From positions 62,001-126,000 of the forward strand of contig CAIWKO010000060.1 of assembly GCA_903913285.1 (NCBI GenBank): a stretch of 64,000 nucleotides of DNA. The letters run 5' to 3'. The notes under the pieces are model-generated. The model searched no databases and had not been told where the DNA came from. It was given only the letters and a program-made list of their open reading frames with translations. The translations under genes were made by a program, and so were the position numbers. Source of the DNA: an uncultured Bacteroidales bacterium (GTDB lineage: Bacteria > Bacteroidota > Bacteroidia > Bacteroidales > CAIWKO01). Shown here piece after piece: positions 22,518 through 53,307 of this stretch. How positions within the stretch are numbered: position 1 is the stretch's first letter; the number at the start of each line of letters is the position of its first letter.

Positions 22518-22792
22518 TTCGAATAGTTATTGATTTTTAGCTTGTAGGCAAAATTTGTATGAAACATTGATATAATTTTTATTCTACCTATTCAGTAGGT
22601 GCAATCCATGTATCCATTGGCCAAGTTTCCAAACTTCCCACAAAAATATTCTTTAGTTTCCAATCACATACAAATTTCACCTCAAATATATAAATTTATT
22701 CGATTGAAAATTATTTTTTCAAAAAAAATCATATTATTTTCTCAAAAAAAAACAACGATTAAAGCTTTAAAAAACATAAAAGTCAAATTGAA
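22518..22792. other. AT-rich gap between defence-like operon and repeat locus
   Basis: About 275 bases, very A/T-rich, with no coding potential I can support. It should contain the promoter of the minus-strand operon, but no good TAnnTTTG element was found. Confidence 0.4.
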
Positions 22793-23044
22793 AACAACGA
22801 TTATCAAAATCTGAACAATGGATTACAAAATCTGAACAACGACAATCAAAATTATGACTATGGATGACAAAAATATGACAATGGATGACAAAATCTGAAC
22901 AACGACAATCAAAATTATGACAATGGATGACAAAATTATGACAATGGATGACAAAATGGAGTCAACGACGATCAAATTCTGAACAACGACAATCAAAATT
23001 ACGACAATGGATGACAAAATGGAGTCAACGACAATCAAAATGTA
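22793..23044. repeat. 21-bp tandem repeat array A, locus 1 (12 units)
   Basis: Twelve consecutive units of exactly 21 bases without indels. Units alternate between two types, one built on GACAATGGATGACAAAAT and one on AACAACGACAATCAAAAT. There are no unique spacers, so this is not CRISPR. The open frames through it (for example minus strand 22823-23143) exist only because 21 is a multiple of three. It is followed by an A-rich spacer and a second, different 21-bp array. Confidence 0.85.
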
Positions 23045-23180
23045 AAAAATCAAAACAAAAAAACAAATCAAGTTGTTAATTATCAATATAATAATAAATA
23101 AGTCAACCAATTTACTTCTTAACAAATTAACCAACGAACTCAAAAATCACACCCCTAAAACAAAAATAACAACACACTAC
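23045..23180. other. A-rich spacer between the two 21-bp arrays, locus 1
   Basis: Includes AAAATCAAAACAAAAAAA, then TAATTATC and AACAAATTAACCAACGA. The same succession occurs at 40550-40640 in locus 2, so the spacer is homologous between loci. Confidence 0.6.
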
Positions 23181-23453
23181 CTCGTCCGAACGACACTTCA
23201 CCTCGTCGGAACGACTACGTTTCTCGTCCGAACGACACTATTCCTTCTCCGGACGACTCTGTTCCTCTTCCGAACCGCACTATTCCTTCTCCGGACAACA
23301 CTATCCCTTCTCCGGACGACACTATCCCTTCTCCGGACGACACTATCCCTCTTCCGGACGACACTATCCCTTCTCCGAACGACTCTGTCACTCGTCCGAA
23401 CGACTCTGCACCTTTTTCAGACTACATCAAACCTTTTTCAAACAACATCAAAC
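23181..23453. repeat. 21-bp tandem repeat array B, locus 1 (13 units)
   Basis: Thirteen units of exactly 21 bases, core CTCGTCCGAACGACACT or CTTCTCCGGACGACACT, the last two degenerate (CTTTTTCAAACAACATC). An ORF through it (23073-23525) would encode heptad repeats such as LLRTTLS, but it lacks a convincing start region and is probably not a gene. Confidence 0.85.
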
Positions 23454-23736
23454 ATCTTCCGGGTCATCCTTTATATCACCTCGCTCATAGCTTTTTATCC
23501 CGTAACCACCGGAATACATCTCTAAACTCTTATCATTTTCTGTAGCCCTTCGCCGAATATTCTGCCCGATTATCTTATTCCTTATCATCTTGCCGTTTCT
23601 TAACACACTATAGGATTGTTTTTATAAAAAAACATCCCTGGCTATCATCTTTTAAAAATAATTAAAAAACTTTTCACCGCTTAAATCGTTGTTTTTATGA
23701 TTATTCACTACTGTGCGAAACAGATTAATGAAATTA
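23454..23736. other. Intergenic DNA between repeat locus 1 and the padR operator
   Basis: Tail of the degenerate repeat, then AT-rich sequence. I see no gene here. Confidence 0.4.
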
Positions 23737-23933: not shown

Positions 23934-24018
23934 GGAAGGGGAAAAAAGACGTTGAAAATCAATTAAAAGTCATTTGGAAAGAACAACAAACAACAAACGA
24001 CAAACAAACAACAACAAA

Positions 24019-24354
24019 ATGGATATCGAAAACTCAAAGGCCCAGATGCGAAAAGGTGTGTTGGAGTATTGCATACTCTCCATCATATCCGAAAAGGATG
24101 CCTACGCATCCGACATCATGGAAAAACTGAAAGAAGCCAAACTCATCGTGGTGGAAGGCACGCTCTATCCCTTGATGACACGCCTGAAGAACGACGGCTT
24201 GCTCAACTATCGCTGGGAAGAATCAAAAAGTGGCCCCCCGCGCAAATATTATCAACTCACCGACGACGGACGCAAATGCCTCTCCGATCTCGACGAAAGC
24301 TGGAACGAGTTGGTTGATTCGGTTAAACATATCACTCAAAAAAATAATTCATAA
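24019..24354 (+). CDS. PadR-family transcriptional regulator
   Basis: 111 residues from the ATG at 24019, preceded by an A/C-rich leader (AACAACAAAAT). An upstream in-frame ATG at 23974 gives only low-complexity residues and is rejected. Winged-helix features: MRKGVLEYCILSIISEKDAYASDIMEKL, then VEGTLYPLMTRLKNDGLL and SGPPRKYYQLTDDG. It should bind the dyad at 23737 and repress its own operon. The next gene, 12 bases downstream, is a PspC-domain protein; this pair recurs in Bacteroidota and suggests envelope-stress control. Confidence 0.93.
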   Translation: MDIENSKAQMRKGVLEYCILSIISEKDAYASDIMEKLKEAKLIVVEGTLYPLMTRLKNDGLLNYRWEESKSGPPRKYYQLTDDGRKCLSDLDESWNELVDSVKHITQKNNS

Positions 24355-24366
24355 AACATCATAGCC

Positions 24367-26154
24367 ATGAACAAAACAATATCAATTAACATAGGCGGTT
24401 TATTTTTTCAGATCGATGAACAAGCATACATCATCCTGGAAAACTATCTTGACTCCCTAAAAAAACATTTCGCAGGCACCGAAGGCAGCGAAGAGATCAT
24501 TCAGGACATCGAATCTCGTATAGCCGAAATATTTCAAACCCGCATCGAAGCCGGAAACGTTATGATTACCCTCGAACACGTGGAAGAAACCATAAAGATA
24601 CTGGGCAACCCGGGCGATATCGACAACAACAGCCCCGAAAAAGAAACCAAAAAAGAACACAAACGCTTTTCACAGAAACGTTTGTTCCGCGACGAGGACA
24701 ACCGGGTGCTGGGCGGTGTATGTTCCGGATTGGGACATTATCTTGATGTCGACCCCGTTTGGTTTCGTCTGGGGTTTGTTATAGCCCTCTTGTTTTTCGG
24801 CTCGAGTATATTAATATACCTGGTGTTGTGGATCATCATCCCCAAAGCCGACAGCACCGAAGATAAAATGCACATGAAGGGCGCACCGATGACCATCAAG
24901 GAAATAGAAAACAATATCAAAGAGGAGTTCGAAGATCTGAAAACCCGTTTCCACGACATGCGCGGCCACACCCGAAGACGCACACGCAGAGAAATGCACG
25001 AACTAAAACGCAAGATACATCAGGCAAAACACGAAGCCAAGTATTCATATCGTCAGTGCTATGTAGCTTCAGCAGTGGCAGCAGGCAAAAAACCCGAACA
25101 CATGCATCATCATGGCTTTGGAAGCGTGTTTGGCGAAATATTTTACTATCTGCTTCGCGCCCTGCTGATATTTGCTGGCATTGTTCTGCTCATCGTTGCT
25201 ATTATTTTAACGGGTTCGCTTGTGCTTTCGCTCACGGCATCCGATAGTTTCGTGCTGTTCACCAAATGGGGCATATCGTCGGTTTCTGTTCCTGCTCTTT
25301 CTAACCTGTTTTTCGAAAACCAATGGCAGCAGCAACTTACTGTTATCACCCTTCTGCTGCTGATAGGCGTTCCTTTGCTGATGCTCATCTTCAACAGCAT
25401 CCGTATGATAATCGGATTCAAGACCAAGCATCGTATCATCTCCATAACCGCCTCGCTTATGTGGCTCACGGGTTTGATCATAGCCATTTTTCTCACCATT
25501 AACATCGTCGGCAATTTCAACGAAAAGACTTTTGTAAAGACAGAGGTCGTTTTGCCACAGCCCCGGAAAACCCTCACCATCGATATAACCGATAATTTGC
25601 CGGGCATACGCACAACAACTGTGAACGACGAAGAAAACGATGAAAGCAATGTGCAGAACCATCAGCATTTTATCTTCAACAACTGCTTCTTTTCTGAACA
25701 CAATGACAAACTCATCGCTTACGGTTTCCCAAAACTTAAGATCGTTGCTGCTTCCGGCGGAGAATATAAACTTACGGTGATAAAATTCGCACGGGGCACC
25801 AGCCTGTTGAGCGCACGCCATAGAGCCGAAGCAATAAAAGCAGATGTTGCCACACCCGATTCAACTTTGTTCATCAACAATTATTTTGTGCTCCCGTTCA
25901 ACGAAAAATGGCGCAACCAATCGGTGAAACTCCTGCTCGAAGTGCCCGAAGGGAAGAGTATTTTCCTGACCGGCAACGTAGAAAATCTGGTTTACGACAG
26001 CAATTACCTCGACGGAAGCTGGAACACGGATATGATTGGCAAAAAGATGACGATGCACAACGGCATTTTGGTTGAAGACAGACAATTGCCAGTTAAAACA
26101 GACAGCGTACCTGCAAAAAAACCGGTGCAAAAAAGACTTCTGCCTAAAAAATAA
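24367..26154 (+). CDS. PspC-domain inner-membrane protein
   Basis: 595 residues. Residues 1-85 are a soluble segment (INIGGLFFQIDEQAYIILENYL, EEIIQDIESRIAEIF) usual in the Bacteroidota form. A PspC domain follows at about 98-160 (KRLFRDEDNRVLGGVCSGLGHYLDVDP and a hydrophobic helix). Then come a basic segment and three or four transmembrane helices (about 255-400), and an extracytoplasmic beta-rich C-terminal domain with a Lys-rich tail. PspC proteins take part in phage-shock/envelope-stress sensing. It is the second gene of the padR operon and is followed by a terminator. Confidence 0.88.
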   Translation: MNKTISINIGGLFFQIDEQAYIILENYLDSLKKHFAGTEGSEEIIQDIESRIAEIFQTRIEAGNVMITLEHVEETIKILGNPGDIDNNSPEKETKKEHKRFSQKRLFRDEDNRVLGGVCSGLGHYLDVDPVWFRLGFVIALLFFGSSILIYLVLWIIIPKADSTEDKMHMKGAPMTIKEIENNIKEEFEDLKTRFHDMRGHTRRRTRREMHELKRKIHQAKHEAKYSYRQCYVASAVAAGKKPEHMHHHGFGSVFGEIFYYLLRALLIFAGIVLLIVAIILTGSLVLSLTASDSFVLFTKWGISSVSVPALSNLFFENQWQQQLTVITLLLLIGVPLLMLIFNSIRMIIGFKTKHRIISITASLMWLTGLIIAIFLTINIVGNFNEKTFVKTEVVLPQPRKTLTIDITDNLPGIRTTTVNDEENDESNVQNHQHFIFNNCFFSEHNDKLIAYGFPKLKIVAASGGEYKLTVIKFARGTSLLSARHRAEAIKADVATPDSTLFINNYFVLPFNEKWRNQSVKLLLEVPEGKSIFLTGNVENLVYDSNYLDGSWNTDMIGKKMTMHNGILVEDRQLPVKTDSVPAKKPVQKRLLPKK

Positions 26155-40256: not shown

Positions 40257-40471
40257 TAATTTTTTCAAAAACAAATCCTTAATAATTTATTATTTGGGTT
40301 GAGGTAACATGATTTTAATTAATTGCACGCAACGGGATACGCAAGCGAGCAGTGTGAAGTATGTTTTAATGTCAACGACAATAGCTTTCAGAAAAACATA
40401 AATCATTTTACAATAACAATTTTGAATCAAAAGCAACCATAAAAACTAAAAAAACGCTAAAGTCAAATTTA
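40257..40471. other. Intergenic DNA before repeat locus 2
   Basis: AT-rich, no gene seen. The last 20 bases (near 40451-40471) already resemble a decayed 21-bp unit. Confidence 0.4.
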
Positions 40472-40555
40472 GAACAACGAAGTACAAAATCTGAACAACC
40501 AAGTACAAAATATCGACAATGAAGTACAAAATGAAGTCAACGACAATTAAAATAA
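40472..40555. repeat. 21-bp tandem repeat array A, locus 2 (4 units)
   Basis: Four units of exactly 21 bases: starts GAACAACGAAGTACAAAAT, GAACAACCAAGTACAAAAT, CGACAATGAAGTACAAAAT, AGTCAACGACAATTAAAAT. They are homologous to array A of locus 1, 17 kb away. Confidence 0.8.
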
Positions 40556-40642
40556 AAAAAATCAAAACAAAAAAAATCAATTAAATCACTAATTATCTAC
40601 TTAATAACACCATTCAACAAATTAACCTACAATTCACAAGTC

Positions 40643-41392
40643 ATGGCACGATTCTCTGTCGTATTACTATTTTTACAACACGAATATCGTGATTATCCTA
40701 TCGTACATCATCCAAATTACTATTTACATCCAAACTCTAAAGCCTTTTGTCAATATTTATTCATCGTGAACGAGAAATATGACATCGTGAATAAGAATTA
40801 CGACATCGTGAATAAGAAATATAACATCGTGAATAAGAAATATGACATCGTGAATAAGAAATATGACATCGTGAATAAGAATTACGACATCGTGAATAAG
40901 AAATATAACATCGTGAATAAGAATTATAACATCGTGAATAAGAATTATGACATCGTGAATAAGAAATACGACTGTGTGAATAAGAAATACGACTTCGTGA
41001 ATAAGAATTATGACATCGTGAATAAAAATTACGACATCGTGAATAAGAAATATGACATCGTGAATAAGAAATATGACATCGTGAATAAGAAATATAACAT
41101 CGTGAATAAGAATTATAACATCGTGAATAAGAATTATAACATCGTGAATAAGAATTATGACATCGTGAATAAGAAATACGACTGTGTGAATAAGAAATAC
41201 GACTTCGACGATTTTAGTTACTATTACAACCCCATTCGGCAGCAAGCTCCGCCTCCTTTGGCTTATTTATGCCATCCGTGGCTTGTGGCTACAAATAAAC
41301 AAACCCGGCATCAAATTCCTTACTTTCAGGAAAATAATATTCAATTTTGTGCGTTTTCTAAAAGAATAAACGCCATAACTTTTATTAAATAA
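40643..41392 (+). other. Open frame through the repeat array; coding status doubtful
   Basis: 249 codons, ATG at 40643, no signal peptide, no known domain. The central 150 residues are (Y-D-I-V-N-K-K)-type heptads that follow directly from the DNA repeat, and the minus strand is also open (40757-41245). The heptad period could suit a coiled coil or a beta-solenoid if it is translated. I regard the DNA repeat, not the peptide, as the likelier unit of selection. Confidence 0.3.
40762..41202. repeat. 21-bp tandem repeat array B, locus 2 (21 units)
   Basis: Twenty-one consecutive units of exactly 21 bases built on CATCGTGAATAAGAAATA, with one- or two-base variants (for example CTGTGTGAATAAG, CTTCGTGAATAAG). 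An ORF on each strand stays open throughout because the period is a multiple of three. The plus-strand frame 40643-41392 would encode about 21 heptads like KYDIVNK. The upstream spacer (40556-40640) matches that of locus 1. Confidence 0.88.
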
Positions 41393-49967: not shown

Positions 49968-50069
49968 CCTTTTAGTCTTTTAGGTGTGTAGACTTTTAGG
50001 TAATAGGTAACAAGTAATAGTTATAGTCTTCGGTCTTCCAACTTCTAACTCCTAACTTTTAACTTTAGG

Positions 50070-50180
50070 CACTTTAGGCACCTGCCCGACTGAAGCCGTT
50101 CAGGCGGGCTTTAAGTACTTTAGTTCACTTTAGGCACCTGCCCGACTGAAGCCGTTCAGGCGGGCTTTAAGTACTTTAGT
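50070..50180. repeat. Two 55-bp direct repeats containing a hairpin
   Basis: Copies at 50070-50124 and 50126-50180 start CACTTTAGGCACCTGCCCG and end TAAGTACTTTAGT. Each holds an inverted repeat GCCCGACTGAA, loop GCCG, TTCAGGCGGGC (one mismatch) followed by TTTAAG. It lies downstream of lpxD, where the hairpins could act as terminators. Confidence 0.75.
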
Positions 50181-50189
50181 CACTTTAGT

Positions 50190-51334: not shown

Positions 51335-51570
51335 AGAAGGATTGAATTAGCTAAAAGCCATTACTTCCTACTTTTTTAACCACGGAAATACGGAGAACAC
51401 GGAGATACACAGAGAATTTATTTTGCATTCAAAAAAATTATTTTATTTTTTTAACAAAAAACTTGCATCACTTAAAATAATTTACGTTCTTTGTGTATCA
51501 TAAATTAAACCATATAAACCCGATGATCTATCGTTCTGATATATCATGTTCCGAAAGGCCTATTTCCGTA

Positions 51571-51580
51571 GGGGGGGGGG
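51571..51580. repeat. 10-G homopolymer upstream of repeat locus 3
   Basis: A run of ten G, six bases before the ATG at 51587 that opens the frame through repeat locus 3. It is the most conspicuous homopolymer in the window and a candidate slippage tract. Confidence 0.8.
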
Positions 51581-51687: not shown

Positions 51688-52063
51688 TTCGCACGAGTTG
51701 GGAAAGGGTTCGCACGGCCAAGGAAAGGGTTCGCACGGCCGGGGAAAGGGTTCGCACGGCCAGAGAAATGGTTCGCACGGCCGGGGAAATGGTTCGCTCA
51801 CGGGACGATATGGTTCGCTCGTAGAACGATACCGTTCGCACGACCGGGGAAAGGGTTCGCACGACTCAGGAAAGGGTTCGCACGACTTGGGAGACCTCCG
51901 CACGACCAAGGAAAGAGTTCGCACGACTGAGGAAAGGGTTCGCACGGCCAAGGAAAGGGTTCGCACGAGTTGGGATGCCTCCGCACGACCGGGGAAAGGG
52001 TTCGCACGGCTGAGGAAAGGGTTCGCACGAGCCGGGAAAGGGTTCGCAGGGTTGGATATATAC
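51688..52063. repeat. 21-bp tandem repeat array, locus 3 (about 18 units)
   Basis: Units built on TTCGCACGGCCGGGGAAAG. The distance between TTCG starts is 21 in almost every case, and 20 before the two variant units at 51897 and 51980 (GACCTCCGCACGA, GCCTCCGCACGA). On the minus strand the unit reads CGTGCGAACCCTTTCC, which shares CGTnCGAAC with array B of locus 1. The frame 51587-52117 encodes GKGSHGR-like heptads that switch frame at the 20-base units, arguing against a conserved protein. Confidence 0.85.
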
Positions 52064-52150
52064 TTTGATTGGATGGAGGGATGTAGTTCTTGTTTATTGA
52101 ATGCTAATTATTTATAAACAATATTATTCACTTTAAAAAAAAATAAAGTT

Positions 52151-53119
52151 ATGGAAGATCAAAACATTTATTGGAGCGAAATGGAAAAAAGAATTGTTGG
52201 GTTGAAAAGTAACCCATTGTATTCGGCAGAAATAACCGGAACGGTTGCAACATTGGATTTTTTTACACGAGCTGAAGGCTATTTTAACGATAAGGTGAGC
52301 TGGCAACAGAAATTGGAAAAATCGTCGAAAGCGTATACGAAAGCAGGCGAGGCAAAGAAAGAGGAAGCCGCCCAGACTTTTAGTATTACGGCATCGGTAA
52401 TGAAATCGTATGGCGAAAAAATTGGTGATGCCGATTTGATAGGCCTGAAATTGCTGACATTTTCGAAATTGCATAAGGAAAGTGTTACTGCACAAATTGC
52501 TGATAATAATTATATTTTGGGTTTGATAGATGCTAATAAAGTTGCACTGGCAGATTATAAGATAGATGCAGCTTTTACGGCCAAGCTTGTTACGCTGAAC
52601 AAGGATCTTGACCTGCAGACAAAATTGCCGCTGGACGTGGTGAAGCAACATGCCAATGATAAGGTTCAGTATGAGGATATGGAGAATACTTCGAAGAAAT
52701 TTTATGATAAGGAGATGGACCCTTATATGAAAATTTATAAAATTACAGATATGGGTTTGTTTTTGGCTTATCTGGCGGCGCGGAAGGTGCGGCATCATCA
52801 TTTGAAACGAAAAGCGGTTGTGCCAGACCCGGAAACTATTACGGGAATACTGGAGTTGATGCTGCTGTTCAAAGCATCGATGGACCCGGCAGCAGGAGCC
52901 AGTTATGTGGTTACGGCACTGGGTATTTCGGATACGACGGATGAAGACGGGGAAGGCTATAATGACGAGTTGAAGCCCGGAACGTATCATGGAAAGATTT
53001 CGATGGACGGCTATAAGGATATTGAGTTTGATTTTACGATAGAAGCAGGAAAAACTACAGCGTTGCAGTTTTTGCTGGAAGTGGCTAATGTGGCTCCGAG
53101 CGGAACGCCGGGGAGTTGA
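52151..53119 (+). CDS. Cytosolic protein of unknown function next to repeat locus 3
   Basis: 322 residues, no signal peptide. Residues 1-215 are helical and charged (KVSWQQKLEKSSKAYTKAGEAKKEEAAQTF, TSKKFYDKEMDPYMKIYKITDMGLFLAYL). Residues about 215-262 contain a His/Lys-rich patch (ARKVRHHHLKRK), and 275-315 form a short beta domain (NDELKPGTYHGKISMDGYKDIEFDFTIEAGKT) of the carboxypeptidase-regulatory type. An equally long minus-strand frame (52133-52990) has a composition unlike a real protein and is rejected. Family not recognised. Confidence 0.75.
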   Translation: MEDQNIYWSEMEKRIVGLKSNPLYSAEITGTVATLDFFTRAEGYFNDKVSWQQKLEKSSKAYTKAGEAKKEEAAQTFSITASVMKSYGEKIGDADLIGLKLLTFSKLHKESVTAQIADNNYILGLIDANKVALADYKIDAAFTAKLVTLNKDLDLQTKLPLDVVKQHANDKVQYEDMENTSKKFYDKEMDPYMKIYKITDMGLFLAYLAARKVRHHHLKRKAVVPDPETITGILELMLLFKASMDPAAGASYVVTALGISDTTDEDGEGYNDELKPGTYHGKISMDGYKDIEFDFTIEAGKTTALQFLLEVANVAPSGTPGS

Positions 53120-53163: not shown

Positions 53164-53307
53164 AGTGATAGTTTCACTTTGAGTGAAGCTATCACTTTAT
53201 AAAAATAAAAGTGGAGACCAGAAACCACTCGGATGAACAGAGTGATAGTTTCACTTTGAGTGAAGCTATCACTTTATAAAAGTAAATGTGGAAACCAGAT
53301 ACCACTT
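53164..53307. repeat. Tandem interspersed repeat, two copies with hairpins
   Basis: Copies start at 53164 and 53241, 77 bases apart. Each has the hairpin AGTGATAGTTTCACT, loop TTG, AGTGAAGCTATCACT, then TTATAAAA and a short dyad like AGTGGAGACCAGAAACCACT. Part of the second element recurs at 54280-54299. It precedes the T9SS cargo gene. Confidence 0.7.

Follow-up and report, generated by a model that had tools for sequence, protein, structure and literature searches.

The window, by which we mean the whole stretch of 64,000 nucleotides analysed, harbors three loci at which tandem arrays with a 21-bp period occur, all on the forward strand. Locus 1 starts with the remnant of a 5' leader (22738-22782, start approximate), which blastn and MAFFT alignments identified as common to modules on two other contigs of the genome, C45 and C18. 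The remnant is followed by array A, with about 12 copies of its 21-bp unit (22783-23047; TRF and autocorrelation), and by an AT-rich trailer (23042-23146) with homologs in locus 2, C45 and C18. A second and unrelated 21-bp array with unit CGACACTATCCCTTCTCCGGA occupies positions 23165-23465 and has no family gene behind it. Further downstream of these arrays, a PadR-type regulator precedes a PspC/ToastRack membrane protein (23974-26154). Locus 2 shows the same order of parts: a leader remnant (40425-40472; blastn against the other copies), a short array A of about 3 copies (40473-40532), a trailer (40533-40633) and an unrelated array with 21 copies of a 21-bp unit (40762-41207). The open frame that traverses this last array (40643-41392) is probably not a gene.

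Locus 3 includes a gene. A boxA-like sequence, CGTTCTTTG (51485-51493), lies in its leader about 200 nt ahead of an array of 17 copies of the 21-bp unit TTCGCACGACCGGGGAAAGGG (51688-52048). A trailer (52049-52150) then leaves a gap of 102 bp between the array and a gene of family 1 (52151-53119), the product of which has 322 aa, a helical N-terminus and a CarboxypepD_reg-like C-terminus (profile E 6.5e-25; Pfam). A run of ten G residues upstream of the array (51571-51580) is a possible slippage or phase-variation tract, and imperfectly duplicated stretches of 56 and 77 bp flank the module (50062-50188 and 53164-53306).

Copies of the spacer module

The sequence-only reading had claimed that the spacer between the arrays, i.e., the trailer and its surroundings, is conserved between loci 1 and 2. 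The two intervals it reported (23024-23180 and 40536-40640) align locally with a score of 75, compared with a mean of 22.3 (sd 5.3, maximum 52) in 659 real windows from this genome that are just as rich in A, none of which attained 75. The part that follows the last repeat scores 52 by itself, a value that none of 500 dinucleotide shuffles reached (25.2 ± 4.0). Conservation was thus confirmed against both controls. The homology is collinear and extends into the upstream array, with 78% identity over 133 bp. It ends near 23134-23146 in locus 1 and near 40633 in locus 2; about 30 bases at the end of the interval reported for locus 1 therefore already belong to the next array.

When the host assembly (G000; 4.0 Mb, 70 contigs, 97%-complete) was searched, exactly two more copies of the module emerged, C45:141971-142316 and C18:50989-51358, and the genome therefore holds four copies of leader, array and spacer. 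The similarity is neither mere A-richness nor confined to one other site. The further proposal that whole elements were duplicated or dispersed is borne out in that leader, array and spacer were copied together, but four copies do not make a high-copy interspersed element. Likewise, the spacer was expected to return many hits, each followed by a different 21-bp array: the many copies did not materialize, while a different array does follow two of the four, locus 1 and locus 2, with nothing recognizable after C18.

The C18 and C45 copies are 95% identical over 314 bp, and their modules measure 445 and 403 bp, respectively, a difference of one extra 42-bp unit. In C45, the copy immediately precedes a gene of 405 aa, which makes the spacer the 5' trailer of that gene. 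The start codon is located about 10 bp past the end of the C18 homology, which begins about 5 nt after the TAGATTTG (-7-like) element of C45; the gene itself is absent from C18. The start and end of the homology coincide with those expected of a transcript leader, a suggestive but single case. Loci 1, 2 and C18 are array modules without a gene, loci 1 and 2 being duplicated modules of this kind, and a search behind these solo arrays for remnants of family genes yielded none that was convincing.

Four dispersed intergenic copies with leader, tandem repeat and tail would fit a MITE-like minisatellite element. The nearest description we found in the open-access literature is that of BrickBuilt in Porphyromonas gingivalis, another bacterium of the Bacteroidota, a single sequence that carries 23-nt tandem repeats, ends in terminal inverted repeats and is present in 19 copies (PMC4596501); no description of the array-gene arrangement itself was found there. 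BrickBuilt is likewise intergenic, with leader, tandem repeats and tail in several copies. However, the modules studied here have a period of 20-21 and lie upstream of specific gene families, the copies of this one number only four, and inspection by eye of the edges of the C45 and C18 copies revealed neither terminal inverted repeats nor a target-site duplication. Other arrays are unrelated in sequence, at the level of shuffled units, yet share period and position. This already disfavored explanation is consequently very improbable.

In GTDB r220 contigs, the last-repeat motif shared by the copies was not matched exactly, nor was a shorter version of it in IMG/VR. The spacer module was not found in three congeners, and weak matches in other families were few, short and low-scoring. 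What recurs is the architecture, i.e., an array of about 21-bp units, an AT-rich trailer and a gene, and not the sequence of the spacer, a member-specific trailer with dozens of unrelated counterparts.

Period, sequence and leaders of the arrays

TRF and a period scan of 464 kb of G000 recovered 19 long array segments of period 21, compared with 0-1 for each of the other periods from 15 to 30. Part of these 464 kb was chosen for holding arrays; the unbiased part (280 kb) gives a density of 25 arrays per Mb. Density rises to 58 per Mb in G001; in the congener G002, 276 kb contained no array, and the first two gene families described below went undetected. Arrays in G000 are mostly intergenic, and most of those in the sample adjoin no detected family gene. 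Across 42 arrays, the median number of copies is 13 (interquartile 12.3-15) and the median distance to the start codon is 125 bp, a gap with 75% A+T. Some arrays have higher-order units of 42 and 63 bp.

Units of different loci and paralogs are unrelated, their identity of 0.43 being the same as that of shuffled units (0.43). Because loci 1 and 2 have open frames that would encode 7-residue repeats, coding heptad repeats were considered and rejected: differences between neighboring copies show no bias among the three codon positions (515/547/454), and stops interrupt every frame of many lower-identity arrays. Periods of 20 and 41 bp in Methylococcales also rule out codon constraint. Nested folding of the units did not exceed chance (z +0.27 vs permuted units). 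At the gathering score of Rfam there was no match in the window, and five module loci gave only sub-threshold matches. The word ACGAC, a candidate for a recurrent unit motif, turned out to be an artefact of the pattern used.

The strict period of 20, 20.5 or 21 bp, kept with free sequence in two phyla, corresponds to two helical turns and could place successive bound proteins on one face of the DNA. Such a scaffold, a phased binding or bending site, would control the downstream gene, perhaps when bound by the helical-domain product of that gene, and solo arrays would be bound in trans. Its 10-15 or so units, non-coding and without an RNA fold, agree with this idea. Conversely, 58 independent units have no common motif (k-mers are barely above shuffles) and units lack internal periodicity of 10-11 bp, or of 7 bp. 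Furthermore, complete replacement of the unit beside a protein that is 98% identical (see below) excludes sequence-specific binding by that protein. We regard a DNA scaffold as unlikely, though it is the strongest of the rivals considered here.

A motif search upstream of arrays returned only generic A/T-rich or TTTG motifs. A boxA-like core, GTTCTTTG, occurs in sense orientation in 9 of 56 leaders and in antisense in none, with about 0.67 expected from the genome rate; the motif was picked post hoc from frequent words, and the nine loci include two pairs of close relatives. Several of these sites follow a TAnnTTTG-like element at a distance of 25-30 nt. Long untranslated RNAs, among them rRNA, are marked by boxA, and such elements have also been reported to precede CRISPR arrays (PMC7862264). 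Type III toxin-antitoxin systems (see below) have a Rho-independent terminator between repeats and gene; in the corresponding gap of the modules, a count of T runs revealed no excess of loci in sense orientation. The modules resemble CRISPR arrays in having a leader and short units, a boxA-like site in some loci, and variable sequence beside a constant protein. Units here are nevertheless arranged head to tail, without alternation of repeats and spacers, and none of the downstream genes tested encodes a Cas-like protein.

Gene families behind the arrays

A profile was built from ten paralogs of the C45 gene, and members of family 1 were collected from G000, G001, G003, G042 and other families of the class. 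An array was called when autocorrelation at lag 21, 42 or 63 was at least 0.65 within 600 bp upstream. By this measure, 53 of 61 members have an upstream array, compared with 3 of 57 on the downstream side and 7 of 165 ordinary genes (Fisher P 4.5e-35, a value that overstates independence since the members are related). A second family, of about 205 aa with a helical part and an FN3 domain, has arrays upstream of 22 of its 28 members and downstream of none (0/28). Third and fourth families were located by looking behind orphan arrays of G001, and the fair test is therefore provided by their relatives only; arrays precede 6 of 7 and 8 of 10 genes, respectively, and follow 0 of 7 and 0 of 14. 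In the same genome, uncharacterized proteins lie directly behind 21-bp arrays at L295:16580-17338 and L300:236-973, and probably represent additional array-associated families. G000 has at least 14 family-1 genes and about a dozen FN3-type genes. Two family genes have one in-frame stop, TGA in C45:116940 (L063:16940-17545) and TAA in C61:158-1006, and are possible pseudogenes that retain their arrays.

The FN3 family was also encountered in the named genomes Breznakibacter, Paludibacter, Marinifilum and Mariniphaga and in MAGs of the methane-oxidizing Methylococcales, with an upstream tandem array at 30 of 35 loci of these Bacteroidota and Methylococcales genomes. In the culturable Breznakibacter xylanolyticus DSM 6779, the array of the FN3-type module (L232) is modest. 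Units of 20 and 20.5 bp occur in Methylococcales beside those of 21. Their FN3-type module was seen in Methylococcaceae and Crenothrix, with several copies per genome (L241-L269), which suggests horizontal transfer or a distribution wider than that sampled. Searches of phages (tblastn with P0001), plasmids (tblastn with an FN3 member) and IMG/VR gave no match.

The product of the C45 gene belongs to a large paralogous family with a helical bundle and Ig-like domains. Its AlphaFold2 model has an N-terminal bundle of ten helices (1-205) and two beta-sandwiches (pLDDT 90.6), and that of the second family has a helical bundle and FN3 (pLDDT 88.7). The Foldseek matches shown correspond to the beta domains (pilin/CnaB, transthyretin-like and FN3), and the same searches revealed no known RNA-binding fold in array-associated proteins. 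The helical parts lack a match among Pfam, NCBIfam and PADLOC models.

Short tandem repeats directly upstream of a single gene, with a repeat that differs per locus, are also typical of type III toxin-antitoxin systems (ToxIN, CptIN, TenpIN; PMC5086642), and one could envision that the repeats are RNA antitoxins and the downstream protein a toxin. The order of parts would be the same. The proteins, however, have no similarity to ToxN, CptN, TenpN or nucleases and are not endoribonucleases by any search (Pfam, NCBIfam, PADLOC, folds); the units show no nested folding above chance, whereas pseudoknotted repeat RNA is typical of type III systems, and can be exchanged while the protein remains unchanged; and there are many paralogs per genome. 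We therefore give this explanation hardly any credence.

Exchange of units and possible roles

Comparison of orthologs revealed how units and proteins change relative to each other. In L136 and L144, the proteins are 99% identical and the unit is the same. In L139 and L147, the proteins are 98% identical and leader and trailer are conserved, yet the units are entirely different (GTTCAATTATGAACCATGAAG vs TGGTATTGACTATGCAGGTTC). These two loci come from draft assemblies, but a double chimera exactly at the edges of the array is unlikely. The array of L139 resembles that of its paralog L145, with which it has a common leader and a protein identity of only 46%. Arrays, leaders and genes have thus been reassorted, with mixed combinations among L139, L145, L147 and L143.

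Such combinations, the gene-less duplicated modules (loci 1, 2 and C18) and the higher-order units would be explained if the arrays were contingency minisatellites, i.e., fast-evolving promoter-proximal VNTRs that tune the expression of variable Ig-like proteins and provide recombination sites for the exchange of modules among paralogs, with a period that reflects how arrays arise and not what they bind. Nothing obliges a neutral satellite, however, to retain a single period and a fixed side of the gene in distant phyla, and the number of copies is rather narrow. This explanation appears improbable, somewhat more so than the DNA scaffold.

As read from sequence comparisons, the module comprises a leader, about 13 tandem units of 20-21 bp and a trailer that measures about 130 bp, and its normal place is immediately before a gene encoding a predicted helical-bundle and Ig-like (CarboxypepD_reg/CnaB or FN3) protein. 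Upstream-only placement, an apparently non-coding array and a replaceable unit characterize the modules of four protein families in Bacteroidota, one of which extends to Methylococcales. The reading we tentatively favor, while giving it slightly less than even chances, is that the repeats give a transcribed but untranslated RNA in the service of the downstream gene or its product. The array would be transcribed from its own leader, at some loci by way of a boxA-type antitermination site, and the resulting RNA would act on that gene or protein, or together with it. The number of repeats and their spacing, which equals roughly two helical turns or a single guide-sized unit, would matter instead of one fixed sequence, and recombination in the leader that paralogous loci share would consequently allow them to exchange units. 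Against a repeat RNA speak the restriction of boxA-like sites to a minority of loci, the fact that most arrays in the G000 sample adjoin no detected family gene, and proteins in which no known RNA-binding fold was found. Specific RNA-protein pairing is not supported, given that folding of the units is not above chance and that no co-variation of unit and protein was found.

A variant to which we assign little probability is that each module amplifies a single guide, providing many copies of one 20-21-nt guide RNA for a common helical-domain protein; the guide would be exchangeable, the protein constant, and solo arrays would add guides in trans. In 464 kb of the own genome, no unit had a match outside arrays at up to 2 mismatches, and self targets did not exceed the control; targets, if any, must therefore lie elsewhere.

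Membership in type III toxin-antitoxin systems, MITEs, CRISPR arrays or coding repeats fails in each case on at least one tested defining feature. None of the systems we could test matches a non-coding array that is fixed in period, free in sequence, swappable and tied to several multi-copy gene families in two phyla. The modules provide one entry point to a large group of paralogous hypothetical genes, as well as a testable argument for a novel type of repeat RNA or of regulation by repeat DNA. They also account for the abundance of 21-bp minisatellites in these genomes, repeats that may disrupt assembly from short reads. Separate repeats with a period of 7 bp (GACTTCT, ATTTGGT, GGTATCT and similar) occur near gene ends, mostly between convergent genes, as in L052:4341-4430, L055:5475-5552, L056:12376-12449 and L049:18396-18637.
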